This document shows, piece by piece, positions 2,588 through 63,175 of a stretch of 64,000 nucleotides of DNA. Below the pieces are notes generated by a model. It was given only the letters and a program-made list of their open reading frames with translations. It made no database searches and was not told where the DNA came from. The stretch's first letter is position 1; each line of letters opens with the position of its first letter. Position numbers and translations under genes: made by a program. This stretch comes from Pleurostoma richardsiae (lineage: Eukaryota > Ascomycota > Sordariomycetes > Calosphaeriales > Pleurostomataceae): the NCBI GenBank assembly GCA_030052745.1, contig JANBVO010000001.1, positions 62,001 through 126,000 on the forward strand, written 5' to 3'.

Positions 2588-3092
2588 TTACTCGCAAGCA
2601 GCTAGCGAGCCCACAGGGTCGTAGTACTCGTAGACCTTGTTGTCCTTGTTCCGACCCGTCACTGCGGGGGCCATGTACGTCGACACCCCTGTCTTCCTGT
2701 CGTACTCGCGGAACGAGCAGGCAAGGCGCTTCCCGCCGCCTCCTGGCAGGTCGACCACGAACTGGGGCATCATGAAGCCGGCGATGGAGCCGCGGATGTG
2801 GGCCTCCAGATCGAGCATGGTCTGGAGGGGTGTGCGGAGATGCTCGACCTTCTCGACCATGTCACACATGTACACGTAGTACTGCCCAGTCAGCATCAGT
2901 ATATCATTCAACAACTCGCATTATGGATTTAGCGTCGTGGCTTACGGGAATGATGTTATTGTCTGCAAGACCGCGGATCAAGCGTGACATAGTCTCAACG
3001 TCGTCGTTGACTCCTCGAAGCAGGACTGACTGGTTACGAACCGTGACTCCAGCCTCGAGGAGCTTCTGGCTCGCCTGCTGTGTGATCCAGGA

Positions 3093-3131
<39 letters not shown>

Positions 3132-4351
3132 GGCCTTCCCGGCCCTCTTTGCCTTGTTGGACACGTCAATCAGCGTATTGACCCAACCATCAGACTCGTC
3201 GAGGATGCGAGTGGGCGCCACGGCGAGGCCTTTGGAGGCGAAGCGGAAGCGGCGGATGTTGGGCATGCCGATGAGACGCTCTCCAATCTCGGAAATGTGC
3301 GCTGGCTGCAGGTAGTAGGTGTCACCGCCAGAGATGACAATATCATGGAGGCCCGGCTGGCTCTCGATGTAAGCGAGGGCCTGCTCCCATCGCTTGCGGG
3401 CCGGCTTCAACGACGCCTTCGTGACGGACTCGGTATTTGCTCCAACGGCATATGAGCGGGTGCAGAACATGCAGTAAGTCGGGCACACGGACGTCGCTTG
3501 ATGTGTGGTTAGCCAGTGCCGTACAAACAGTTTCGTTGGTTCAAGACGTACGCAGGAAGAGGGCCTTGTCCGGATAGCGATGGACAAGACCGTGGACTGG
3601 TGAATCTGCCGTCTCATGGAGGGAGTCGAGACTAAGTTTTGGGTGGTCGGGGAGCATGACCGACTTCATTGGCAGGAACTGACGGAAGACGGGATCATTC
3701 CGCGGGTCACTCCAGTCAATACGGCTGAGGATGTAGGGCCTATGCAGGGTATCAGCACAGTCACACTCCGTAAATGACGGGATTGGAGGATAGACGAACG
3801 TCATGCGGATGGCCATGGTGGCTGCCGCTATGCCGTCAAGGACATCCTTGATAAGATCGTCGCGAGACTGCGCCGCCGTTCCGCTCTTGCCAGAGGGGAC
3901 CTCATCCGGGAGGACCGCGCTCAGGAACTTGAAGAGTTTCGGGCCGCTTTCGACCGTGTTGGAAACCTATGCAGTACTACAATTAGCCAATACAGTGCCT
4001 CGGAGCGTAGGGGTGTAGACGGTCGAGCATGCGGCCAGTCACCCGCATAAATATCTCATGATGGTGTTGTAGTTGGATCGCTCTACTTACGCTCCAGCGA
4101 TGAGACAAGAAGTCGCTCGCCGGTGTGTTCTCCCAGACCGGGATCCGGCGCCAGAACTCGTCTTGAGAGCCAGAATCTGAGGCTAGCACGACTGGAGTCG
4201 TGGACGAGGTTCCATCCGGCACATGCTTCTCTACAACCGCGGCAGCAACTTGAGCTAGACGGGATGAGGTGGCAACCGCCCGGGACAGCTTCTTTGCCGA
4301 GAGCAGAGAAGGACTCCACTTGATCCTCGGATATCTGGCAAAAGGGGACAT
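2588..4351 (-). CDS. L-lysine 2,3-aminomutase-like radical SAM protein
   Basis: Predicted to move the alpha-amino group of lysine to the beta carbon using S-adenosylmethionine, a [4Fe-4S] cluster and PLP. Five exons read on the minus strand: 4351-4091, 3966-3800, 3739-3552, 3496-2946 and 2881-2588. They join into 486 residues. The radical SAM motif CxxxCxxC is Cys210, Cys214, Cys217 inside CPTYCMFC. The PLP lysine is Lys440 in PGGGGK. The two acidic residues that bind the substrate lysine amino group in bacterial LAM are matched by Asp396 (YMCDM) and Asp433 (VVDLPGGGGK), which favours lysine over glutamate as substrate. The C-terminal zinc cysteines of clostridial LAM are not evident. The start at 4351 is a choice; an extra upstream exon encoding a mitochondrial leader is possible, because the first 30 residues are basic and serine-rich. 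The family is mainly bacterial, so ancient transfer into fungi is likely (inference). Confidence 0.88.
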
Positions 4352-9802: not shown

Positions 9803-11212
9803 CTACTGCTCGTCCTCATCGTCCTCCCAGTCGTCCCCCTCATCATCGTTGTCCCAGACAGAGACGCTGTCCCAGGCAGGAGGCACCAAGTACCGCGTCT
9901 CGCCCTCCGGATCCGTGACCTCCAGCGTCGGGCCCTGATTGAACGGGTCCCGCAGAACCGACCGCCGCCAGTCGCACTGGTTGCCCATCGACAGTAAGCC
10001 GTGCTCCCGCACGTGTATGCGCGTACGTGACTGCTCCGGCTCCAGATGCTTCGTGCTCCAGTATCTTCTGTACCGGCCTCCTCCGCACTCGGCGTCCTTG
10101 TCGCCTCCGATGACAGCGGTCGTGTCCCAAGCAGGGGGTATCAAGTAGCGCGTCTCGCCCTCCGGACTCGTGACCTCCAGCAGCGGGCCCTTGTTGGAGA
10201 GGTCCCGCAGCGGCGAGAGCCGCCAGTCGCACCGGTTCCCCGTCGACCGCAAGCCGTGCTCCCTCGCATACAGCCGTGTCCGCGACAGCTCCGCCGCGAG
10301 GAACTGCACGCCTGCGTACTTCCTGTGCCGTACTCCCCACCCGGTCTGCTCCTCTCCCTCGCTCTCGTCCTCCTCGCTGCCATCCTCCCCGCCCGACCCG
10401 TCTCGGATCGCCGCGGGCTTGAACGCCACCTCGCGCGCCTTGCGGTTGTATATGAGGTCGCCCTCCGGGCACCGGTACAGCATGCGGCGGTGCTTCTGCT
10501 TGCCGAAGAACTCCTCGAAGTTGTAGCACGGCCCGACGATCCAGAGGCCGGACTTGGCGACGGCCCGCTCGCTCCAGTCCGGGTGGTCGGAGTTCAGGAG
10601 CCGTTTGGGAGTGTCGTCCGTGATGGTGACCTGCAGGGCGAGTCCGTTCTCCAAGGAGGCGTCTTCTGAGCCGTAGCCCGAGTCTGAGTCGCCCATCTCG
10701 CGCAGCTTGCTGTCAAGGGTGGTGACGTCCATCTCGTCGTTTTGCTTGTCGAAAAACGTGGGTTCGAGAGGGGTGGGCGCAAGTAGTATGTATTCAGACT
10801 CTTGATCTTCCCCGTCGGAATCGGGGACTTGTTGAACAAAGTTGAGGAGTTCGGCTGTTGGCTGGGGCTCTCCAGAGGTGGAAGAAGAAGTTGGTTGGGA
10901 TTCGGAGAGAGAGATGGTGGTGGTTAGGTACCTGGTGAGGCGCGTCACTTGCTCCTCAGAAGGCGGCTCACCCTCACCTTCAGGACCGGTGCGGCGCTGA
11001 GGTTCATCCTGAGCAGCAGGTGAAAGCTCCTCAGGACTTGCCGATTCCTCCCCAGGATATGCCTTGGGTTGAGTCGAGGCCGTCTGCCCACACAACGCGG
11101 ATAAATCAAGACAGGAGACTGACGCTGCCACCAAACGCCCTAGTGCAGGATTCTGTCGCCCGGCCATGGTTATTTTGACGTCGTGAGGGATGTCTGAAAG
11201 ATGTGGGATCAT
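9803..11212 (-). CDS. orphan protein with duplicated C-terminal module
   Basis: Intronless frame of 469 residues; function not recognised. The N-terminal 200 residues are low-complexity, rich in Ser, Glu and Pro, and probably disordered. A central segment (about 205-260) contains SGLWIVGPCYNFEEFF and RRMLYRCPEGDLIYN. The C-terminal part holds two copies of a roughly 70-residue module, residues 294-364 and 379-449, offset by 85 residues. Shared elements include REHGL, a GN(R/Q)CDWR core, GPxLEVTxPEGETRYL and PPAWD. The end is very acidic. GC-biased third positions and the conserved internal repeat argue that it is coding. Met16 at 11167 (MAGRQNPAL) is an alternative start. It has no signal peptide or membrane segment. 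It stands alone, with more than 850 bp free on either side. Confidence 0.7.
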   Translation of the reverse strand: MIPHLSDIPHDVKITMAGRQNPALGRLVAASVSCLDLSALCGQTASTQPKAYPGEESASPEELSPAAQDEPQRRTGPEGEGEPPSEEQVTRLTRYLTTTISLSESQPTSSSTSGEPQPTAELLNFVQQVPDSDGEDQESEYILLAPTPLEPTFFDKQNDEMDVTTLDSKLREMGDSDSGYGSEDASLENGLALQVTITDDTPKRLLNSDHPDWSERAVAKSGLWIVGPCYNFEEFFGKQKHRRMLYRCPEGDLIYNRKAREVAFKPAAIRDGSGGEDGSEEDESEGEEQTGWGVRHRKYAGVQFLAAELSRTRLYAREHGLRSTGNRCDWRLSPLRDLSNKGPLLEVTSPEGETRYLIPPAWDTTAVIGGDKDAECGGGRYRRYWSTKHLEPEQSRTRIHVREHGLLSMGNQCDWRRSVLRDPFNQGPTLEVTDPEGETRYLVPPAWDSVSVWDNDDEGDDWEDDEDEQ

Positions 11213-19353: not shown

Positions 19354-20648
19354 TTACAGAGCAAGGGATAGCAGACTGTTCAAGGAGCCGAGGCTACCGA
19401 CGTTGGCCGTGATGCTCGCAACCAGGTTGGCCAGATTGGTGCTCTGGTCGGACGTAAGATTGCTTGCAATGTCTTTAAAGAATACTGTTAGCATATTCAC
19501 CTCACTCTCGAGAAAGGGGTTGAGAGACTTACCGCTGACGTTGCCAAGTCCGGTCAGGAGCGAGACAACCGACTGGACAATGTCGACAATCACACCGAGG
19601 ACGGAGGAGCCGCTGCCGAGGTTGGACAGGCCAGAAGCATCAGCAGAGACGCTAGTATCACCGACATTAACACCAAGATCGCCGCTGATGTTGAGACCAT
19701 TGAGCTTGCCCAGCGGCTTCAGAGCATCGCTGAGATCATCGACCTCGTCAAGGAGATCGTCGATCTTGTCACCGATGCAGGCGACGGTCGTGCAGTTCCC
19801 AATGAGAGTGTCCACTGCGGATAAGTTAGATCCGCAACTATATCAAAGTTGCTGGGCTAGGGGGCCTTACGAATGATGTCGACGATCCCCGTCGCCTTGC
19901 TGGCGATCTTGCTCAGGCCATCGACGCCACCGACAGCGGCGAGCGACGTCTCCGCGGACGAGGATAGCGACCTGGCAACGTTGCGGCCTTGCCACGGGGT
20001 GTTTGCCTTCCGGGGCAGCACCGGCACCGGAATGGGCGTCGCGATGGTCGGGACCTTCGTATATGTGACGTTGGCCTCCTTTCGGGGGATGATGACCGGA
20101 ATAGGCGTCTCAATCGTCGGGACCTTCGTGTATGTAATGTTGGCCTCCTTTCTCGGGATGATCACCGGGATGGGTGTCTCGATCGTTGGCACCTTCGTAT
20201 ATGTGATATTGGCCTCCTTCCGGGGGATGATGACCGGAATGGGTGTTTCAATGGTCGGCACCTTCGTATATGTAATGTTGGCTTCCTTTCGGGGAATTAT
20301 GACCGGGATGGGTGTCTCGATCGTTGGCACCTTTGTGTAAGTGATGTTCGCTTCCTTCCTAGGGACAACGACCGGGATGGGTGTCTCGATCGTTGGTACT
20401 TTCGTGTACGTGATGTTGGCTTCCTTCCTAGGGACAACGACCGGGATGGGCGTCTCGATCGTGGGTACCTTCGTGTACGTGATGTTGGCCTCATTCCGGT
20501 GATGGATGCGGGGGATCGGCGTATCAATCGTCGGCACCTTCGTGTGCGTGGCATTGGCTCCGAAGTGATGATGTCCGTTCCTAAAACGTCCCGGAGGCGA
20601 GGCCAAGACGCCAGCGGCCAAGGCGAGGGTGAGCAGGGCAGCCTTCAT
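19354..20648 (-). CDS. secreted protein with eight 23-residue repeats
   Basis: Predicted secreted or cell-wall protein, 396 residues, function unknown. Exons on the minus strand: 20648-19871, 19814-19533, 19484-19354. A signal peptide MKAALLTLALAAGVLAS is followed by a short His-rich stretch. Residues 31-214 are eight tandem 23-residue units of the type ANITYTKVPTIETPIPV plus a PRKE-type end, nearly all carrying an N-glycosylation sequon (NAT, NIT or NVT). The C-terminal 180 residues are helical and Leu/Ser/Asp-rich, with a single Cys pair (GNCTTVACIGDK), then DDLLDEVDDLSDALKPL. The second intron (19485-19532, 48 nt) has GTAAGT, CTAAC and CAG, yet is in frame, so a product with 16 extra residues is possible. 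A TATA-like box lies at 20785-20790. Dibasic RK followed by EA at each repeat end recalls processed peptide precursors, but kexin prefers KR. Confidence 0.78.
20007..20558 (-). repeat. eight tandem 69-bp coding repeats
   Basis: Eight direct units of 69 bp inside the secreted-protein gene, each encoding 23 residues. The inner six units are nearly identical at the protein level (VVV or VII variants) but differ at many synonymous bases. The outer units are more diverged, the usual pattern for repeats that expand and contract from the middle. Confidence 0.93.
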
Positions 20649-45096: not shown

Positions 45097-46529
45097 ATGA
45101 AGAAGTTCGGTTTCAGCAAGAAGTCGTCGGACGGCGACGACGATTCCATCAAGTCTGGAATGTTTGGACGGAAGAAGAGCTCTCCCAAGCCCGAGAATCC
45201 CTACGCCCAGAGCCAGGTTGCCGACGATCCCTATGCGAGAATGACTCCTTACCAGCAGGCCAAAGCTGGTCTCTCCAACGGACCTCGACCTGGCGGAGTC
45301 GGCTTGCCGGGCGGGCCATCTCCACGTAACGCTCCCGGTGGACCGCCGCCTCCCTACTCGAGTCAGCCCGGATCGGCCGCCGGCTACGGCTCCGACCGAT
45401 ATGGCTCCCAGAATGGATACGGCAGCAACCGATACGAGCAGAACGCCGAGGCGTATGCGGCCAATTCACGGTATGGTGCGTCGGTGCCATCAAGCTCAAG
45501 TGGCTCTAGGCCAGGGGGTTACGGAGGCATGGGTGATACCGATGATAACCGCGATGCACTCTTCGGTGGGGCGAAGGATAGATACGTCCCCAGCAAGAAC
45601 GATAGCGCGCCAACTCAAGCTCCCAACTCTTACGGCAGAGATTATGATCAGGACGGTAACCGAGGCGCGTTGTTTGGCGGAGCTCGGGACAGGTACGACA
45701 AGCAACAGAGCGCGGGCTATGGGCGGTCTGGCGCATCTGGGGCGGGCGACTCCTCCGAAGGTTATGGAGAGCCCCGCGAGCTGACAGCCGAGGAGCGTGA
45801 AGAGCAAGACGTTCTAGACATGAAGGACGAGATTAAGAAGATCAAGAGAGAGGATGTGCAGATCACGGACAGGACGCTCGCAACGGCGCTGCAGGCTCGC
45901 GATGTAGCCATGGGCACCCTTGCAAGACTAGGTGCTCAGGGAGAACGCCTTCACAATACGGAGAAGAATCTGGATTTGGCATCGAATTACAATCAGGTTG
46001 CTGAGGAGAGAACAAGAGAGCTCAAGACTCTGAATGGGAGCATGTTTGCCGTCCACGTGAACAATCCGTTCACTAAGAAGGAGAGGAAGGCGCAACGCGA
46101 CGCGGAAGTACTGGAGCGCCACCGCATGGAGCGAGACCAGCGAGAGGCTACCCGAAAGGATGCGTATACCAGCAATCAGCGCCTGGAGAGACAATTCCAG
46201 GCGCTAAATCGTGGCCCTGGTCAACATCAACGACATGGCCGGATGAACGCTGCAGAGCGTGCTAACTACACATTTGAGGGATCAGATGAGGAGGACGATG
46301 TGATCGATGACAACTTGGATAAGCTGGCTCCCGTGCTTGGGCAGCTCAAGGAATATGCAGTCGCGATGAGTGACGAGACTGAGCGCCAGAATAATCATCT
46401 CGACAGGATTGCCGTCAAGGTAAGTAAGCTCCCTTACGATATGCGAGCATTGCTAACACGGGTGAACAGAGCGACCTCGTCGATGATGGTGTCAGGATGA
46501 ACAGAGAGAAACTGAATCGGATTCGCTAA
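45097..46529 (+). CDS. sec9: Sec9/SNAP-25-type t-SNARE
   Basis: Qbc-SNARE for fusion of exocytic vesicles at the plasma membrane. Two exons, 45097-46419 and 46470-46529, give 460 residues; the intron has a CTAAC branch site and splits SNARE motif 2. A disordered Gly/Tyr/Ser/Asn-rich region (1-225) precedes SNARE motif 1 (about 240-310, DMKDEIKKIKREDV, then ATALQARDVAMGTLARLGAQ). SNARE motif 2 lies about 398-457 (DEEDDVIDDNLDKLAPVLGQ), with the ionic-layer-type Gln in GQL and NNHLDRIAVK. There is no membrane segment, as in yeast Sec9. A 15-residue element DDNRDALFGGAKDRY recurs (149-163 and 186-200). An NPYAQS motif at 35-40 may bind trafficking adaptors. The ATG at 45097 is preceded by an in-frame TTG only. 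Confidence 0.92.
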
Positions 46530-47648: not shown

Positions 47649-49985
47649 ATGTCGAAAAGGAGGAAAACCCAGGCAGACGGCGCCTTCATAAAAATCGGCG
47701 GCAAGTCCATTTCTTTGGACGGCTACTTAGGCTCTGCCAAAGCTCCGGCAAAGACTGCAGACAAGCCTTCACCAACAGTTATTCAAGAAGATGTGTCGGT
47801 AGACCGGAGTGTCAGAAATGAGCAGAACGGGAAGGACAAGCCAATCCATGAGTCTGGCGGCATCGGGAAGCAGAGATCGCCCAGGAGGGATCTGGAGAGG
47901 AAAGGACGTGGCGATCCGGGCGACAAAGCTCTGCTCCCGGCCCGTCAAGCTCTCCCGATCTGGAATTATCGCGACGAAATCCGGAAACCCTTAAGGCAGA
48001 ACGACGTTCTGATCGTCGTTGCAGAAACGGGTTCCGGAAAGAGTACCCAGGTCCCCCAGTTTCTGTGTACCGAAGGATGGTGTCAGAGAAAGACCAGGAA
48101 GATTCGACGGCAGCCAGGAGGTCCAGAAGAAGAGTTATCTGTTGGCGGCATGATCGCCATCACCCAGCCACGCCGGGTTGCTGCAACGACACTTGCTCAG
48201 CGGGTTGCACGCGAGGCGGGAACTCCGCTGGGGCAAGCTACGAACGCCAGGGGACTGGTCGGTTACTCCGTTCGGTTTGATCACAACGTCCCAAAAGGGA
48301 CCAAGATCAAGTTCTTGACTGAGGGAATGCTTCTTCAGGAGCTCTTGCGGGATCCCAGCCTTCGCCAGTACAGTGCTATCATCGTCGATGAGATTCACGA
48401 GCGAAGCATCGATGTTGACCTCTTGTCCGGCTTCTTGAAGTTGATCCTCTCTGGAGATAAGGCGGGGCGGGACGGGATCCCCCTAAAGGTCGTGATCATG
48501 AGTGCAACAGCCAACGTTGAAGCCATCCAGTCATTCTTCTCGGGCAATACCAAACCCAACGATCAGAATAATAGCAAGAACAGTACGCAAGTCGATCTCC
48601 TCCAGATTGAAGGCCGCCAATTTCCGGTGGATATAACTTATACGCCGAAAGCCGTTCCCGACTTGCAGGAATCTTTGCTGAAGACAATTTTCAAGATACA
48701 CATGGAGCAGCCGTTGCCGGGAGATATTCTAGCATTTCTTACGGGACAGGAGGAGATCGAAGCTGCTCAGCGTCTCATTAAGGAGTTTGCTGCGACTCTG
48801 GCATCGAACGTGCCGAGAATCCACGCTTTGCCCCTTTTCGGACAGCTGTCTATCGAGGCACAGCAGAAGGCCTTCCAGCCAGCGAAAGGTAAATTCACAC
48901 GAAAGGTCGTTCTTGCGACGAATATTGCGGAGACGTCTGTGACGGTACCGGGAGTTCGCTATGTCGTGGACTGCGGAAAAGCGAAAGTGAAGCAGTTCCG
49001 CACCCGCTTAGGGATGGAATCTCTCCTCGCGAAGCCCATCTCTAAATCTTCTGCGATCCAGCGGGCCGGTAGAGCAGGAAGAGAAGCGCCTGGAAAGTGC
49101 TTCAGGCTCTACACCGAGGAAACCTATAAGACCCTCCAAGAGAGCGACTTGCCTGAGATCTTACGGATCGACGTCCTGGGAGCAGTCCTGACTATGAAGG
49201 CCAGAGGTATCGACGATATATTCTCCTTCCCCTTAATGGACACGCCCGATGTTGAATCGTTCGAGAAAGCCCTTCTTCATCTGCATATTCTCGGAGCCCT
49301 TGCAGATGATGGGTCCATCACGGAGATGGGTAGGAAGATGGCCTTGTTTCCTGTTTCTGCACCGTACGGTCGAGTTCTCTTGGCGGCAGCAGAACCAGAA
49401 TTTGACTGCCTGCTGGAAGTCATTGACATCATATCATGTATTACTGCAGGAGAAGACTTATTTCACCAGCTACAGACAGAGGAGGCGAGGGAGGAGGCGG
49501 AGGAGTATCGGAAAGAGCTGTACCGCAGAGAAGGCGACCTCCTCACTTATCTCACGACGATTCAGCACTACGTCGCCGAGAACACCGATCGGAAGGAATG
49601 GTGCAAGCGAAGGAAAATCAACACCCGGAACATGCGGCAGGCTCTGAACATCCGCAAACAGCTTCGGGGCATGTGTCTGAAGGAGAAGATGTTGTCGGAA
49701 CCGCCGCCAGCCGATCCTCAACCGTTCACTCCCATCTCGCCCGATCGGGCCGAGATTGTGCTGAAATGCTTTCTGAAGGGTTTCTCAATGAGAACAGCTG
49801 TGTTGGCACCGGACGGGAGCTACGTCACGTCGCATGGCAAGCATGTCGTCGCCATACATCCGTCGAGTGTGCTTCATGGTCAGAAGAGGGAGGCAATTAT
49901 GTTCTTGGAGCATGTTTTCACACAAAAGAACTACGCGAAGAAAGTGAGCGTCATTCAGGCAAACTGGATCCTGGAGGCCTTCTAG
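47649..49985 (+). CDS. DExH-box RNA helicase (DHX33/Dhr2-like)
   Basis: ATP-dependent RNA helicase of the DEAH/RHA group, 778 residues, intronless. Motif I is AETGSGKST (125-133), Ia TQPRRVAA, motif II DEIH (247-250) rather than DEAH, motif III SATA (285-288), then LATNIAETSVTV and QRAGRAGR for the second RecA domain. HA2/ratchet (LGALADDGSITEMGRKMALFP) and OB-fold regions follow. The N-terminus is short and basic (MSKRRKTQADGAFIKIGGKS), without G-patch, S1 or dsRNA-binding domain. This size and layout best fit DHX33 or yeast Dhr2, which act in ribosomal RNA processing in the nucleolus; a spliceosomal role is less likely because those proteins have longer N-termini. Family placement is inferred. 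Confidence 0.88.
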   Translation: MSKRRKTQADGAFIKIGGKSISLDGYLGSAKAPAKTADKPSPTVIQEDVSVDRSVRNEQNGKDKPIHESGGIGKQRSPRRDLERKGRGDPGDKALLPARQALPIWNYRDEIRKPLRQNDVLIVVAETGSGKSTQVPQFLCTEGWCQRKTRKIRRQPGGPEEELSVGGMIAITQPRRVAATTLAQRVAREAGTPLGQATNARGLVGYSVRFDHNVPKGTKIKFLTEGMLLQELLRDPSLRQYSAIIVDEIHERSIDVDLLSGFLKLILSGDKAGRDGIPLKVVIMSATANVEAIQSFFSGNTKPNDQNNSKNSTQVDLLQIEGRQFPVDITYTPKAVPDLQESLLKTIFKIHMEQPLPGDILAFLTGQEEIEAAQRLIKEFAATLASNVPRIHALPLFGQLSIEAQQKAFQPAKGKFTRKVVLATNIAETSVTVPGVRYVVDCGKAKVKQFRTRLGMESLLAKPISKSSAIQRAGRAGREAPGKCFRLYTEETYKTLQESDLPEILRIDVLGAVLTMKARGIDDIFSFPLMDTPDVESFEKALLHLHILGALADDGSITEMGRKMALFPVSAPYGRVLLAAAEPEFDCLLEVIDIISCITAGEDLFHQLQTEEAREEAEEYRKELYRREGDLLTYLTTIQHYVAENTDRKEWCKRRKINTRNMRQALNIRKQLRGMCLKEKMLSEPPPADPQPFTPISPDRAEIVLKCFLKGFSMRTAVLAPDGSYVTSHGKHVVAIHPSSVLHGQKREAIMFLEHVFTQKNYAKKVSVIQANWILEAF

Positions 49986-50105: not shown

Positions 50106-50662
50106 TCATGACTCTGGATCCTCCTCATGGCTCTGCTTCCGTATGGCTTGCATGAGCTCGTAGAGCTGACCTATTTGTTGCTCTTAACAGGGCGCAGAGT
50201 TGTCAGCAAAAATACACCTTAGAGAACCAAGAGATCGTACTACGTACCACTCAGCTTCTCGATCTTTCCCGGGTCCAGCTTCTCGCCAACCCACGCGTCG
50301 CCCTCGATCTTTTGCGCGTACAACTGCCACTCCGTTAAGAAGCCTATCTGTACGACATTCAGCATGCGCCGCTAAGGGAGGGGGCTCTCGCGGCCTGTCT
50401 GTCGCCCACAGCGTAACAAGCTGCTAAGGCAAGTGTCTTTATCACATACCAGATGCGCCGGGTTATCCACACCGCGATGCGCTCTAAACTCGGCCTTCAC
50501 GTACTCGTCGCCCAGGAGCCGCATATCTCTCGGCAGGTGCTTCCTATGCGCCCTCAACAGGCGGCGGTACAGAGGGATGGGCGGCAGCAGAGCCATCGGC
50601 GCCGGCTTGAGCCCGCTCGGCGTCACGGCCGATGCCATCAGGCGGCGTGCCGAGGTCCGCAT
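50106..50662 (-). CDS. succinate dehydrogenase assembly factor 3 (ACN9/Sdh7)
   Basis: Mitochondrial LYR-motif protein that helps mature the iron-sulfur subunit of complex II. Three exons on the minus strand, 50662-50450, 50347-50248 and 50182-50106, give 129 residues, a normal size. The LYR triplet is residues 31-33 in [15 protein letters not shown], followed by the family's [20 protein letters not shown] and [15 protein letters not shown]. The N-terminus [15 protein letters not shown] is Arg-rich, uncharged for acid, and fits a mitochondrial targeting peptide. The start at 50662 was chosen over an upstream in-frame Met at 50707 because it gives that leader. The C-terminus ends in an acidic SHEEDPES tail. 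Confidence 0.9.
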
Positions 50663-51177: not shown

Positions 51178-54100
51178 TCAACCCTGATCGTGCGGCTGCT
51201 CGAGTACCTCGACGGCCTCAACCGGTTGAAGTCCTAGAGCCCGAATTACATTCTGCTTTATCCACTCATCTGCCTTTTCATCCCCGTCCATATACTGCTG
51301 TACCCGAGCTTCGAATACCAGCGCCTCCTCGTACTCCTTCACCATCCACTCTGGAGCAGCATCGCCAACAGCCAGCCGGCTGCGCATGACGGCTTTTCGC
51401 CGTAGCTTCGCCCTAAGGTAGGGAGTGAAGGAAGGCGCCGTGACCTGCAACTGTTCGATCAGTTGCTGCGTCGTCTTAGTTGCGAGGTGTTCAGGTCCCA
51501 GCATGCTCTCTTGGAGACTGAGGCACTTCTGCGCCCACTTCAAAGCCTCCTCCAGACGTCCCTGCATCCATATCGCCGTTGAAAGGTTGTACAAGGCAAA
51601 TGGGAGTCCCGAGTCATCCTGGTCCAGCGACTCGACCACCAGATCAAGCTCAAGGTTCGCGAGTGCTTCTGCTTCTATGTATCGGCCCTGCCCGTAATAG
51701 CAAGCTGCGCATGCGACTCGCGCCCTGATAGTGTCACGATGGTTCTCCCCGGCCACTTTCTTGAAGTATATATACACTTCCATGAGGAGTCCCTCGGCCT
51801 CCTCGTACCTCCCATTATCCATCAGGCAATGCGCGACGCGGGATTTCGCCCTCATCGTCACAGGCTCATCCGGTCCATGCAGGCGTTCTGCCGCCGCCAG
51901 TTCTTCTTCGGCGAGTTGCAGAGACTTGGGTCCCTGGCCTCTCAGAGAGTCGAAACCCGCAAGTATGCCTGCCGTATTCCAGAGCCCGAGGCGCTCGACG
52001 CCATCTGTTAAAAACTCGTCTCGCCTTGCTTCGCGGACCTCGCTGACCAGGTCAGCCGCCTCGTCAATGCGCGCTTGGACCAAGTAGAGGTTGGCAAGGG
52101 ATAGCTTCACGCTTTGTGTCTTTTGATGGTTCTCGCCAAACGTCTCGATCCTGCTCCTGAGAGCGTACTTCAGCATCGGTTCTGCTTCATCAAATCGAAG
52201 CTGTCGGACGAGATTGTCAGCCAGGTGGATAAGTGCTGACAAGGTCACGTCCGCGTCTTCTCCGATTATGTCTCTTCTGGTCTCGTAGCACCTCCTCCGC
52301 ACATGCTCGGCGTCCCTTACGCGCCCTATCTCCTCGATCATTGTAGCCAGTCTGTGGTCATACTCATTTTCGAGCAAGGGTTCTTCGTGCCGAGCAGTGA
52401 CGTTCTCCTGGCAAGCAAAGATATGAGGTATCATCTTGCCGCGAAACGAGATGGCGTCAGCTGTGTCCTGGAGCAATAGAGACTCGAAGAGTATCGACCG
52501 CGCCGCAATACCACAGTCACTCCTCTGCGTCTCCGTCATGGTATCTCTTCTCCATGAATGGATTAGGACGTGCATGGAGAGGGATTGGTCTGTTCTATCC
52601 CATTTCACAAGCGAAAACTGCTCTAGAAGTAGGGCACCGTCTTCAAAGTTAAGGGGCATCCACTCGCCGCTCTGTTTATCGACGTCCAGAAGCTCTTCCG
52701 GTGAGAGATCGCCGCCTCGAAGGGGGAAGTGATGCCGACGGTTCATCTTTTCCCGCAGCAGCGCTGCATTTCGAACCATGTCAATCGGGAGCCCTTCGTT
52801 ATGATAGAAGCAGATCATGCTGATAATCTGCAGCGCGTAGCGAGCATATTGGCTCCTAGTAGACGTCTTGTCTCCCCTGGTAAACGCTATGATAGCGTCG
52901 TACGAGAGGTCAAAACTTGCATAGACAGGCAAACTTCGGGCATCCACACCCTTAAACCGGTCGTCGCGAAGTAGGATCTTCTTGCGTTTCTTGAATATGT
53001 CAAGGTATGCCTTCAAAGGGGTCTCCGTCATGTGAATGTAGGCACCTGCTTGATCTATCGCTAGCGGTAGATTCCCCAACTCAGCAACGACAGGCTCTGC
53101 GACTGTGCGGGACTCCGGTGTCTCCGCTGCCATTTTTGCTGAGTTAAGGAGCAGTGTTATAGAGTCGTCCTTCCCCAAGACACCAACCTCAATGACACTG
53201 TCTGCCGGGAGAGACATTTTGAGAGTGTTCTCCCTGCTTGTGTAGAGGATGTTGCCTTTATCTGACGAGGGAAAGAAAGCCGCCATGTCCGCGCTGGGGC
53301 TGTAATTGTCAAGAATAAGGAGCCATTCTTCGGTCGCATCCTCCAGCCACGCAACCGTATCTCGCACCGACAGAGACTTTTCGCTCCGGTCCAAGAACAG
53401 TCTTTTGGCGATCCCCTTGTAGCTTTGCTCAAGGGTTATCTGGTCAGTAGCATCGGCCCAGAAAATTCTGTTCTTGAATCTGCGGCTGCATCAGTGCGAG
53501 CTATCAATTGATTGGAAAGCTTCATTCACCTGTCAGTATGGAGTTCAGCGAACTTGAGAGCAATCTGCGTCTTTCCGATACCACCCATTCCCCAAAGCAG
53601 GAACTCTCGTCGTGGCGGGCCGTTCTCTACCCTGGGTACGAAATACGAGTCGAGTCTATCGAGGATATCGCGCCGACCCGTGAAGTTTCGGCTGGAAATA
53701 CCCTGGGGCACCGCCTTCCTCTTCCCCGTGACGATCAGGCCTTCATCTGGGTATCCTGCGCCTACGTTAGAGTCTGTGTCAATGATGTCGCGGTTGTCAG
53801 GGAACATACTTATATGTCCAACCGTGAGACCTCTTGTCGTCTTCTTGCGCAGAACATCTGCCACCTTCCCGATAGCTTCCTTAGCCTCTTCTCTCAGATA
53901 CGCGCCCGTCATCTCTTTCAGCTCCGGGATCTTCTTGTACTCGGCCAAGCCGACTTTTGCCGCACCATTGGGCACGTTGAAGCGGAAGTACGTGTCGGGG
54001 AAGCCCTTGAACCTCGTCTCCATCTCCGCGTGCTGCTTCTCGCAGTCCACGACGATGTCCTTCATGAGCTTGATCAGTTTAAGGCCCCAGGACACGGACC

Positions 54101-54863
54101 GCAGCGCCGATGGCGCCCGCTGCAGACCCGCCGACCGGGTTCCCGTCCCGAGGCTCACCACGCAGCCCAGCTGCCGCGTCCTATCGAAGACGGCGCCGGC
54201 CTCCTCCAGGAGCCACGCCGAGGGGTTGTTACAGCCCATTGCCGCGTCGATGAACGTCTCCGCCTCCCCATCGGCGCCGGTGATGACCATGGGCTTGAAG
54301 TAGGTCGGCGCCGCGCTGGTGGCCCGCGCCGCCTCCCAGATCCTGCAGTTCCTATCCCAGTGGTCGTCGTCGTCGCCACCCAGCTCGTACGACCGGAGCC
54401 GCCGCGGCTCCCTCTGGCTGCGCTCGCTGGCCGGCATCGCGCAGACGAATGAGCGCCCCTTGTCAGAGGCGCCGCCGCTCGGGTCGCGCATGAGGTCGCT
54501 CGCCCCCCTCCGGGCGACGATCTTCTGCACCGTCTTCTCCAGCTCCGTGGCGCCGAACCGCTCGGACGGGTTGGCCTTGCGGTTCCGGAAGCGGAAGATC
54601 TTCTTGGCGAAGATGTCGTACTCCTCGAGCGCCTCCGCCGTCGACATCCGCAGCCGGCCGAGCATGATCGCTATGAGGCCGCCGGTGCTGGTGCCCCCGA
54701 TGATGTGGAAGTGCTCGCACGGCTTCGGGAGGTGATCGAGGCCGTCTCGCCGCTGGATCTCCAGCATGATCTCGTGCAGTATAACGAGTTCCGAGACGCC
54801 CCGGATCCCGCCCCCGTCGAGGGCGAGCAGGTTGACGGGATCATCTTCGTCGGGTGAGACCAT
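51178..54863 (-). CDS. patatin-NB-ARC-TPR protein (fungal NLR/STAND)
   Basis: Three-part signal-transduction ATPase of the NLR type, 1211 residues, in two exons on the minus strand: 54863-53530 and 53479-51178, with a 50-bp intron. The N-terminal effector is a patatin-like phospholipase: oxyanion motif DGGGIRG (16-22), nucleophile elbow GTSTG with Ser59, and catalytic Asp206 in DAAMG. The NB-ARC ATPase follows: P-loop GMGGIGKT (425-432), Walker B WLLILDN (497-503), a TSRE sensor-type element, and the GNLPLAIDQAGAYI helix typical of NB-ARC. The C-terminal 450 residues are TPR-like repeats of about 42 residues (residues roughly 760-1140; for example YEEAEGLLMEVYIYF and YIEAEALANLELDLV). By family knowledge, ligand binding at the repeats would trigger oligomerisation and lipase activity in self/non-self or immune-type responses. 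All catalytic and nucleotide-binding residues are intact. The start MVSPDEDDPVNLLALDGGG is typical. Confidence 0.92.
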
Positions 54864-55902: not shown

Positions 55903-57914
55903 TCACCTCGCTCGTGAAGCGGCAACGTCCTCGTCGAGATACCAAGTCTCGTCCTCCCCCTCCTCCAGCTCCCTAGTCGAGAATCCGTTGCCGAGGTATC
56001 CGAACCTGTTCCGCCCATGCTCGTGCACATACTCGAAATCCTCTCCGCGGAACCCCTCCAGCATGTGGAAGAAGTGCACCCTGCCGCCTGGGTGCAGCGC
56101 CGTGACCGGCCCGTCCGCGCGCCCCGCCTTGAACCACGACCGGCACGGCGCTGCCCACGCTGTGCGCGGCATGAAGGCCGCGATATGCTCGTAGTAGTCG
56201 TCCACGGCGGCGCGCGTCGGCGCCAGGGCCTTGATTCCCTCCGTCTGGCACTTCCTGATTGCGCGGGCGATGTATCGCGCGATGTGCTCGCTCAGGGTGA
56301 AGACGCTGCCGTGACCGATGGGGGCGTTGGGACCCATGAAACCTGGCGGGGACGTTCACGTCAGCCGACAAGTACCAACAGGTGCTTGGTAGGGGATGGG
56401 GCATCTTACTAAAGTAGTTGGGCACCCCTGGGACGGTGCAGGACATGTACGCCTTCGGGAGCTGGTCCTTCCAGATGTCTTGCAGGTTTCCATCCCGGCC
56501 TATCAAGGGGAATCTCGGGCAGAACGACACGTTGAATCCCGTGGCGCAAATTATGGAATCCAGCTTCAGGACCTCGCCGGAGGCCAGTTCAATCCCTTCG
56601 GGTACGAATCTCTTGATGCCATCGGTGACAACGGCGACATTGGGCTGGGTCAGGCACTCGAGATAGCCCGGCGCCGGCGTCATTCTCCGGCAACCTAGCG
56701 GGAATGTCGGGATGAGGGCCTTGCAGAGGCGCTCATCGCCGCCAAGCATGGCTTTCATGTATTGCTCGACTTGGGCTTTTGCGAACGCCTGCATGGGGCT
56801 GTCCTTCAAGATCTGGCAGGAGGACGGTGTCAGCACGTCAAACTGAGGCAGTGAAGGTCTTCGAAAGATCTCTCACAATTCGGAAGTTTCCATTTGTCTC
56901 TTTCTCTATGGCCTTCACGAATTTCCGATAGAATGCTGGGTCACTTCTGAACTTTTCGATCTGGGCTGGAGTAAAGTTCTCATTTTCATCAACCTCGATC
57001 TCCTCCAGGATCGCCGATCCCAACATCTTCATCGTCTGAAGCCTCGGCGGGACAATCCAGGCAGGGGTTCGAACGACGTGATGGAGCTTCTGGACACCTT
57101 GGAGTTTGTCAGAACGGGAAAGGTCATGCCAGGGACGGGATCTCTGCTCACTTGGTTGGATAGCCGGCACGATCTGGGAGCCGGAAGAGCCATTGCCGAT
57201 GACAGCGACAACCTTGTTCGAGTAGTCAAAGTCCTTCGGCCACTTGGCGCTATGGATGAGATCTCCCTTGAAGTCATGGACCCCTTCGACATCCGGCCAC
57301 TTCCAGTTGCTGTCTGTGTTAGTCCATTCGGCCTGCCTTAACAGGAAGGAAATGTACACTCACTTTAGGATACCCGATGCATCCACCAAGAAATTGGCGT
57401 AGTCGTCAAACTCTCTCCCCGTCCTCAGATCCTGGACCCTCAGCTCCCACCTCCCGAGCTCCTCGTTCCACCGCGCCTCAACGACCCTATGCATGGTCTT
57501 GATGCAGTCCATCATCTTCTCCTCCTCGCATATCCGGCGTAGATACGCACCAATCTCCTCCGCTGGTGCGAAGAAGCTGGACCACTCGGGATTCGGTCGC
57601 CACGAGAGCTGGTAGTTATGGCTGGGGATGTCGTTCCTGCAGCCCGGGTAGCGGTTCTCGAGCCAGGTGCCGCCGACGTCGTCGTTCTTCTCGTAGACGA
57701 CGTGTTCGTAGTCGGTCAGGTTCAGCCGAAGCGCGCGGATCATGTTGATGCCGCTGGCGCCCGCGCCGATGCCGACGATGCGGATGTGCTTGGTGGCGCC
57801 GAGTGGTTCCTCCTGCACGGTGTAGGCGGCACCGGCAGGACATTTGGCTTGAGCAGCGTCCTGGGCATCGCTCCCGAGATGATCAGAGATCTGAGTCAGA
57901 CGCGGGCCGGCCAT
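55903..57914 (-). CDS. Baeyer-Villiger-type flavin monooxygenase
   Basis: Predicted FAD- and NADPH-dependent monooxygenase that inserts oxygen beside a ketone to give esters or lactones; substrate unknown. Five exons on the minus strand: 57914-57364, 57309-57152, 57097-56877, 56812-56410 and 56342-55903; phases close to 590 residues. The FAD Rossmann motif is GIGAGASG (48-55), followed by VYEKNDDVGGTWLENRYPGC, a class B signature. The Baeyer-Villiger fingerprint is present as FKGDLIHSAKWP (197-208), with HS in place of the usual HT. The NADPH Rossmann motif is GNGSSG (222-227). The stretch ICATGFNVSFCPRFPLIG is the second conserved GxATGF-type element. No signal peptide. It is next to the NLR gene, but no further biosynthetic genes lie nearby, so a cluster is not evident. 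Confidence 0.9.
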
Positions 57915-61308: not shown

Positions 61309-63175
61309 AGCGTTGTCGCGGTTCGGATCAACTTCTTGGTTGGACGCATTGCTGGCTATTGGATCCTAAGTTGTCTGGGCTGTCCGTCGACGGGCCGGAC
61401 TTTTGTCGTGGGGCGAAAGAGGCGATGGGAGAAGGCCGCTGCGGCCAATCACGCTGTCACGGTGACAGAATGGGAAAATTGTGTACTCTAGGCGACCTAC
61501 GGAGTACGGAGTACGAACGGCAGTGCATTTCCGTGGTGGATCAGTCAATCTCGCAAAAAACGACATAGTTTGTCTGCTTCGCCATCAGCGTCTGCAGGGG
61601 CAACCATCACATGGGTCGAGTATATCGCACAAGGGAGTTTGTTTTGACGCTCTAGAGTGCCTATGTCTTTTCTGACGGTTGATGAATACGGAGTATCTGG
61701 GCGGGAGCTGGAGGGACCCCGCCGAGTAACACGGACTTTTCCAGCTCACGTCATGTGTCAGCTGGAGCTGCCAATGCAACGCAGTCTCCGTCTTTTCCAT
61801 GGAGGTGTAGCCTGCAGCTCTCATGCAGCTCGGGAATTATTGAAGTGGTCATACAATAATAGGCAGAGTGAGCCTTTTTAATTCTCGCGGTTAACTTACA
61901 GCCGCGGTCTCAGTATTCTCGACAAGTTACTCCGTACTTGCGAATCTATTACATACGACGTACGTGGTTTATCACCGTAGGTGCTACAGAAGAACTGATC
62001 AACTGACAGTTGGGATCGGCCCGCAGAGGAAAACACCTGCAAGGTACCACTCTGGGTCCTGGGAGCTGCATTAGGGCGACTAACGTTAGCGGCCAGGAAG
62101 ATCTTGCCAAGAAATGACGGAGTCCCTGGAATTGGTGACGGCGCGACACAAGCAGATCACGGCCGCGAAGAATGCTGATGGCGTAGGGCGAGACTGCAAT
62201 CCATCGGAGGGACCCTGCAGAGTATTTATATTCGTGCTTCCAGAAATACGGAATATAGCACGTACGGTATAATATCACGATCGCGAGAACCTGCTTTTGC
62301 TGCGGCCCAGCCCCGAACCCAAGATCTTGGCTACAGGGACAATCCTTTCCACTCGGAAGTTGCCAGCTGGAGTGTCCACAGAACCGGCAACCCGCATAAC
62401 GTTAACCATAATCCACAAGCTCGCCCTCGAGGCAGAGAAGGGCGGGAACACGCGGATAGGAACAACAGCGGTAAGTCGAATACGGAATGTGAGGCCTCGT
62501 CATCACACGCTCTCTTCACCATCTTCACTCCCCTGGCCGCCGACTGGCTGTTTTTGCCTCCGTCAGCAAACGATGGCACGAGGAATGGGCGGCCCACGGT
62601 TCGCGTGCCCAGACCCCTGCGCCCCTTGCGGTCTAAGTTACCCCAGAACCGCCTCTGTTATTTTAGCGCAAATTGCAAACATCTAGACCCTGCTATTGGA
62701 GGACACTCGCTCCGCTGCGACTCTGGCACACCCTCTCTGTCGCTGCCGCCAGCCCGGACTCTCGTGTTCATATTTCGCTGCCTGCCCTACCACAGTCCCG
62801 CGGAGCACTCCTTTTCCCTCCTCCGCTGCTTCTGCACCATCCAGACTCTCCTTGGTCTCATCACGGTCGTTTTCCAAGCCCTCATTCTGCCTTCTCACCA
62901 TCGTTCAGCCTCTTCCGCTCTAATTAATCCTCTTTAATCCCAGACTTCATGTAAGTCGCTGCCGTGGCGCGAAAGCCCCGAACGCATAAACCCCCTTTTC
63001 CTCTGGGCGAAACCGCGCGACGGCCAACGGGAGCCGGCGCATCCGTCCCACGCGGCACAGCATGTCGCAGTTTGACACGAGCATGAACTGCCTCGATCGA
63101 CTTTGCTAACCTTCCTGCTGCAGTTTCCCGACTGTCATTCAAGCTTCATTTCTGAACCACATCAACACCGCCAAC
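61309..63175. other. gene-poor stretch before the GPI-protein gene
   Basis: 1.9 kb with no recognisable gene. It contains short TACGGAGTAC-type motifs near 61495-61515 and 61690, and a pyrimidine-rich leader at 62730-62935 before the gene at 63176. Confidence 0.55.

Follow-up and report, generated by a model that had tools for sequence, protein, structure and literature searches.

The window analyzed here, 64,000 nucleotides in length, comprises positions 62,001 to 126,000 of contig JANBVO010000001.1 of the ascomycete Pleurostoma richardsiae and is located on contig C1 of an assembly of 39.4 Mb in 136 contigs. A gene running from 54863 to 51178 on the minus strand was identified, which by its sequence is one fungal NOD-like receptor (NLR), i.e., a signal transduction ATPase with numerous domains (STAND), of the patatin-NB-ARC-TPR type. 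It lies close to a gene for a SEC9-type t-SNARE. The features of the locus are listed in Table 1.

Table 1. Features of the NLR locus and its surroundings (window positions).
Feature	Position	Strand	Content and evidence
NLR exon 1	53530..54863	-	Patatin-like lipase domain 13-214 (Ser59, Asp206) and NB-ARC P-loop GMGGIGKT 425-432; open reading frame, splice, Pfam, motif positions, CapV alignment
Intron, 50 nt, within NB-ARC domain	53480..53529	-	Predicted
NLR exon 2	51178..53479	-	Remaining NB-ARC (LLILDN, ILYTSR, LPLAID, MHVLIH) and degenerate kinesin-light-chain-type TPR array; Pfam, motifs, PDB
SEC9-type t-SNARE, 467 aa, probable guarded partner	45097..46500	+	PDB SEC9 9cru; two SNARE stretches with Q281 and Q431
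DEAH-type RNA helicase, between SEC9 and NLR	47649..49985	+	Pfam OB_NTP_bind, HA2, Helicase_C, DEAD
LYR-family small gene, one assumed intron	50240..50662	-	Pfam Complex1_LYR_2, E=1.8e-20, on product spliced by eye

The open frame 54863..53526 and the frame ending at 51178 are joined by splicing out a single predicted intron (GTGAAT...CCGCAG), which yields the single 1211-residue product of the original prediction. In the scanned stretch, 11 alternative GT-AG choices also keep one frame, among them a 44-nt choice leading to 1213 amino acids, and the exact junction is therefore a prediction; the 50-nt intron was preferred because it reproduces the 1211 residues. The intron lies between the P-loop and the Walker B motif, and a single NB-ARC match spans the junction after splicing. 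Since one NB-ARC domain is thus interrupted, the objection raised with the original prediction, that the patatin and NB-ARC parts might belong to two genes, is unlikely to hold on the predicted splice.

In the profile search suggested there, all three families exceeded the curated Pfam cut-offs on the predicted splice: Patatin (E=1.6e-22, residues 13-214), NB-ARC (E=2.9e-12, residues 423-598) and TPR_12 (E=2.1e-28, four stretches, about 820-1110). The phospholipase region described from the sequence was recovered with GGGIRG starting at residue 17, GTSTGG containing Ser59, and Asp206; in a phmmer alignment with the solved CBASS (cyclic oligonucleotide-based antiphage signaling system) phospholipase CapV, Ser59 aligns with the serine of GTS and Asp206 with the aspartate of DGG. 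The P-loop GMGGIGKT (425-432) is likewise intact, as is the Walker B/kinase-2 motif LLILDN starting at residue 498, with an asparagine in the second acidic position, and MHVLIH starts at residue 747. Against solved structures, exon 1 matched CBASS CapV (1.5e-15), plant patatin-17 (3.5e-9) and iPLA2beta (8.9e-8), and exon 2 matched kinesin light chains in PDB (E=1.8e-12). The bacterial CapV-type phospholipases, which are cyclic-nucleotide-activated according to their PDB names, resemble the NLR in its lipase part only. Among viral contigs, none of three pattern matches to exon 1 was confirmed. Among genome contigs, 34 pattern matches gave four confirmed loci (three cyanobacterial, one from Desulfobacteraceae), all confined to query residues 319-443 at the P-loop end with 29-38% identity, which would say nothing useful about the origin of the gene. 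The architecture by itself is ordinary; according to PMC12258605, patatin NLRs in Sordariales belong to the NB-ARC type in 95% of cases (146), and NB-ARC is usually combined with TPR.

The original prediction saw no visible partner effector, a statement which does not hold given the SEC9 gene 4.7 kb away, the sole match in the genome. Its residues 245-448 match the SEC9 structure (E=2.1e-28), and the second SNARE stretch also matches SNAP-29 and SNAP-25 in PDB. Q281 and Q431 each lie inside one of the two SNARE stretches and are presumably the zero-layer glutamines. No Pfam family matched the open reading frame (ORF), no further SEC9 match at E<=1 was found across the 39.4-Mb genome, and among viral contigs six pattern matches to SEC9 yielded no confirmed relative. 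The two genes are convergent, with 4677 bp from stop to stop, and are not directly adjacent. The DEAH helicase and the LYR-family gene between them, the latter presumably ACN9/SDHAF3-like, are probably bystanders. A HET-domain partner was not found in the window; the 104 HET matches listed genome-wide all lie elsewhere. Together with the SEC9 gene and the short intron, these matches would suit a filamentous ascomycete. A search of the assembly for 5.8S rRNA gave no match.

By a rough estimate, a distance of no more than 5 kb between the sole SEC9 gene and one of three patatin-NB-ARC-TPR loci has a chance of about 0.1%, and the value for any of 20 NLR loci is about 0.8%. Both figures assume uniform placement and a 5-kb limit picked after the gap was seen, and the locus counts are lower bounds, as the NB-ARC search listed at least 14 matches and missed the gene of the window.

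NLR genes linked to sec9 are known as incompatibility systems, namely PLP-1/SEC-9, HET-Z and vic2. In Neurospora crassa, the patatin-NB-ARC-TPR NLR PLP-1 is reported to interact with SEC-9 and with itself and to trigger death on incompatible SEC-9, for which patatin activity and the ATP-binding motif (P-loop) are required (PMC12881547). This is a system of germling-regulated death. For the sec-9/plp-1 pair, high polymorphism and signs of balancing selection are reported (PMC7159315). The pair in the window is alike in having a gene for a receptor of this architecture near a SEC9 t-SNARE gene, but two genes intervene, and the likeness is one of architecture and linkage. HET-Z, too, is an NLR to which this incompatibility function is ascribed (PMC12881547) and which is linked to sec9 (PMC10890737); its death domain is probably patatin, judging from a figure legend that names the domain types. 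By description only, it also resembles vic2 of Cryphonectria parasitica, where a patatin-like lipase and sec9 lie at one locus (PMC10324583) and the STAND protein is of the NB-ARC-TPR type (PMC3689799). In Botrytis cinerea, Bcvic1/Bcvic2 likewise pair an NLR with a SNARE protein gene, but the receptor is described as having NACHT and ankyrin parts, unlike that of the window. According to PMC10890737, distinct NLR genes are linked to sec9 homologs in four genera, and such pairs apparently arose independently in four distant fungi, N. crassa, Podospora anserina, C. parasitica and B. cinerea (PMC10197012). A guard model for the pairing has been proposed in reviews (PMC12881547, PMC10197012).

The domains, the key residues and the linkage to a SEC9 gene of which no second copy was found are directly established. 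Because of the literature on linkage and death for PLP-1, vic2 and other NLR-sec9 pairs, the receptor is proposed as the guard of the neighboring SEC9. It probably (about 0.7) works together with this t-SNARE in the manner of PLP-1/SEC-9 and would thereby be a further member of the guard/guardee incompatibility systems. Recognition, oligomerization and lipase-dependent death are drawn from work on relatives. The TPR region would sense SEC9, and contact after hyphal fusion with a SEC9 that is disturbed or foreign (non-matching) would make the receptor exchange nucleotide at its P-loop and oligomerize. The N-terminal patatin lipase would then attack membrane lipids, so that the fused cell dies. 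NLR-SEC9 pairs have been used to argue that the secretion machinery is guarded by some fungal NLRs. Every additional linked pair from another genome bears on the question of whether the linkage is inherited or repeatedly re-formed, and a non-adjacent pair helps to gauge how much linkage such systems need.

How the repeats of the presumed sensor evolve was compared within the genome. The NLR gene reaches a best 120-nt self-identity of 0.50 (shifts of 90-399 nt), Tandem Repeats Finder reported no tandem repeats in it, and the only direct repeats found were two short ones in exon 1, each with two copies (28 nt with 71% identity, 25 nt with 76%), a size class flagged as often due to chance. Arrays of 126-nt units with a best identity of 0.82-0.99 are present in seven of 13 other NB-ARC loci (L024, L025, L026, L027, L028, L034, L036) and were not found in the remaining six (L022, L029, L030, L031, L032, L035). 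This same-genome control bears out the original observation that the TPR units are not near-identical. All examined loci except L036 were covered with only about 1.5 kb per side, so the repeats of some could have been cut off, and further NB-ARC-like places, e.g., on C65 and C50, are not among the 13. For WD40 repeats, near identity between units is taken to indicate concerted evolution and a high variability of alleles (PMC12222747). The degeneracy of the TPR array bears on how the repeats evolve and not on whether alleles differ. As N. crassa sec-9/plp-1 is polymorphic (PMC7159315), a missing array of identical repeats is no argument against allorecognition.

Matches to the patatin part were found on C4, C55, C99 (two), C112, C126, C13 and C85, of which only C4 and C126 also match the NB-ARC region and the TPR (C13 and C85 were covered as loci of about 3.3 kb). 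A duplicate of the NLR gene was sought and rejected; there is no close paralog, with about 30% identity to C4 (residues 16-612) and at most 57% over 30 residues to C126. The C4 relative (L036; G000:C4, 3476-7624), a patatin-NB-ARC-TPR locus on a 28-kb contig, carries 12.1 copies of the 126-nt TPR unit with 91% matches, and its aligned patatin part runs through stop codons, perhaps introns. Against the solved repeat proteins 4y6w and 4y6c, its TPR part reaches 7.2e-69 and 7.8e-68, compared with 3.7e-5 and 4.9e-6 for the gene of the window, and if a hypervariable sensor is sought, L036 is the better candidate. The relative on C126 has 2.2 tandem TPR copies (85%); its NB-ARC part gave no Pfam call in the two frames tested, only a tblastn match to residues 387-503.

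Three other explanations of the locus were weighed. The receptor might guard the integrity of SEC9 while being monomorphic within the species and without a role in allorecognition, i.e., the conserved sensor of the original prediction. The array-free TPR region, set against the arrays of the seven other loci, and the guard model of the reviews speak for this. On the other side, PLP-1/SEC-9 is polymorphic where studied according to the reports cited, a degenerate array is uninformative on alleles, and six of the 13 other loci are likewise without one. We consider it rather unlikely, and as it is a sub-case of the proposed guard of SEC9, the odds of the two overlap. A working receptor of the same architecture could also respond to another ligand, a microbe-derived or stress cue, and lie near SEC9 by chance. 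The two intervening genes fit such a coincidence, as do the two loci of similar architecture on contigs other than that of SEC9 and N. crassa plp-2, for which balancing selection but no killing with sec-9 is described in PMC11138114. The roughly estimated 0.1% for linkage to the sole SEC9 and the equivalent linkage reported in several fungi (PMC10890737) argue against it, which makes chance proximity unlikely. Finally, the gene model could be decayed or mis-joined, representing two genes or a pseudogene, as the exons are separate open frames and the intron is only predicted. This is hardly credible, since the spliced frame is stop-free, the catalytic and nucleotide-binding motifs are retained, and the one NB-ARC match crosses a junction located inside the domain.

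The NLR gene also shows a step in the G+C content at third codon positions (GC3), which is 0.923 over residues 1-298 (window 53969-54863, minus strand) and 0.623 thereafter. The log-likelihood gain of the step is 57.0, compared with at most 8.6 in 300 shuffles. Its position is close to the end of the patatin part but does not coincide with it; the Pfam match ends at 214, 84 residues earlier, and homology to CBASS patatins extends to about 333. The step is only suggestive, because four others of the 48 ORFs examined have gains of 25-40 (mechanical ORFs, some possibly in wrong frames). Abrupt steps in mechanical ORFs were seen in L022, L004, L039 and window 9806-11212 (e.g., from 0.68 to 0.99), which may point to patches rich in GC within genes of this genome. 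In the C126 relative, GC3 of the patatin segments (0.71-0.86) also exceeds that of the NB-ARC segment (0.58). Given the other stepped ORFs, the patatin GC3 of C126 and the 84-residue offset, the step does not prove that a domain was exchanged, although such an exchange or a gene conversion may have caused it. As GC3 falls near the patatin end while the C4 and C126 relatives carry tandem TPR units, the NLR might combine a slowly changing, non-repetitive SEC9 sensor with a recently exchanged or converted killing domain, which we regard as very doubtful. If true, the guarding of SEC9 would have been kept while the weapon was swapped, with the pair holding across two intervening genes.

Further features were observed in the window. 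Upstream of the NLR gene, split frames lie at 55903-57914 on the minus strand, with a NAD-binding Rossmann match at 57360-57914 and no Pfam match at 55903-56337; they presumably represent a flavin monooxygenase gene with introns. A radical-SAM protein (2904-3617, minus strand; Pfam E=1.3e-5, below cut-off) seems to resemble lysine 2,3-aminomutase. Finally, a 263-aa protein that looks secreted, an impression from its N-terminus, is encoded at 19857-20648 on the minus strand. It has only two marginal Pfam matches, both below cut-off, contains a unit of 69 nt (23 aa) with the pattern EANITYTKVPTIETPIPVVVPRK in 7.5 copies, and may be the precursor of processed repeat peptides.
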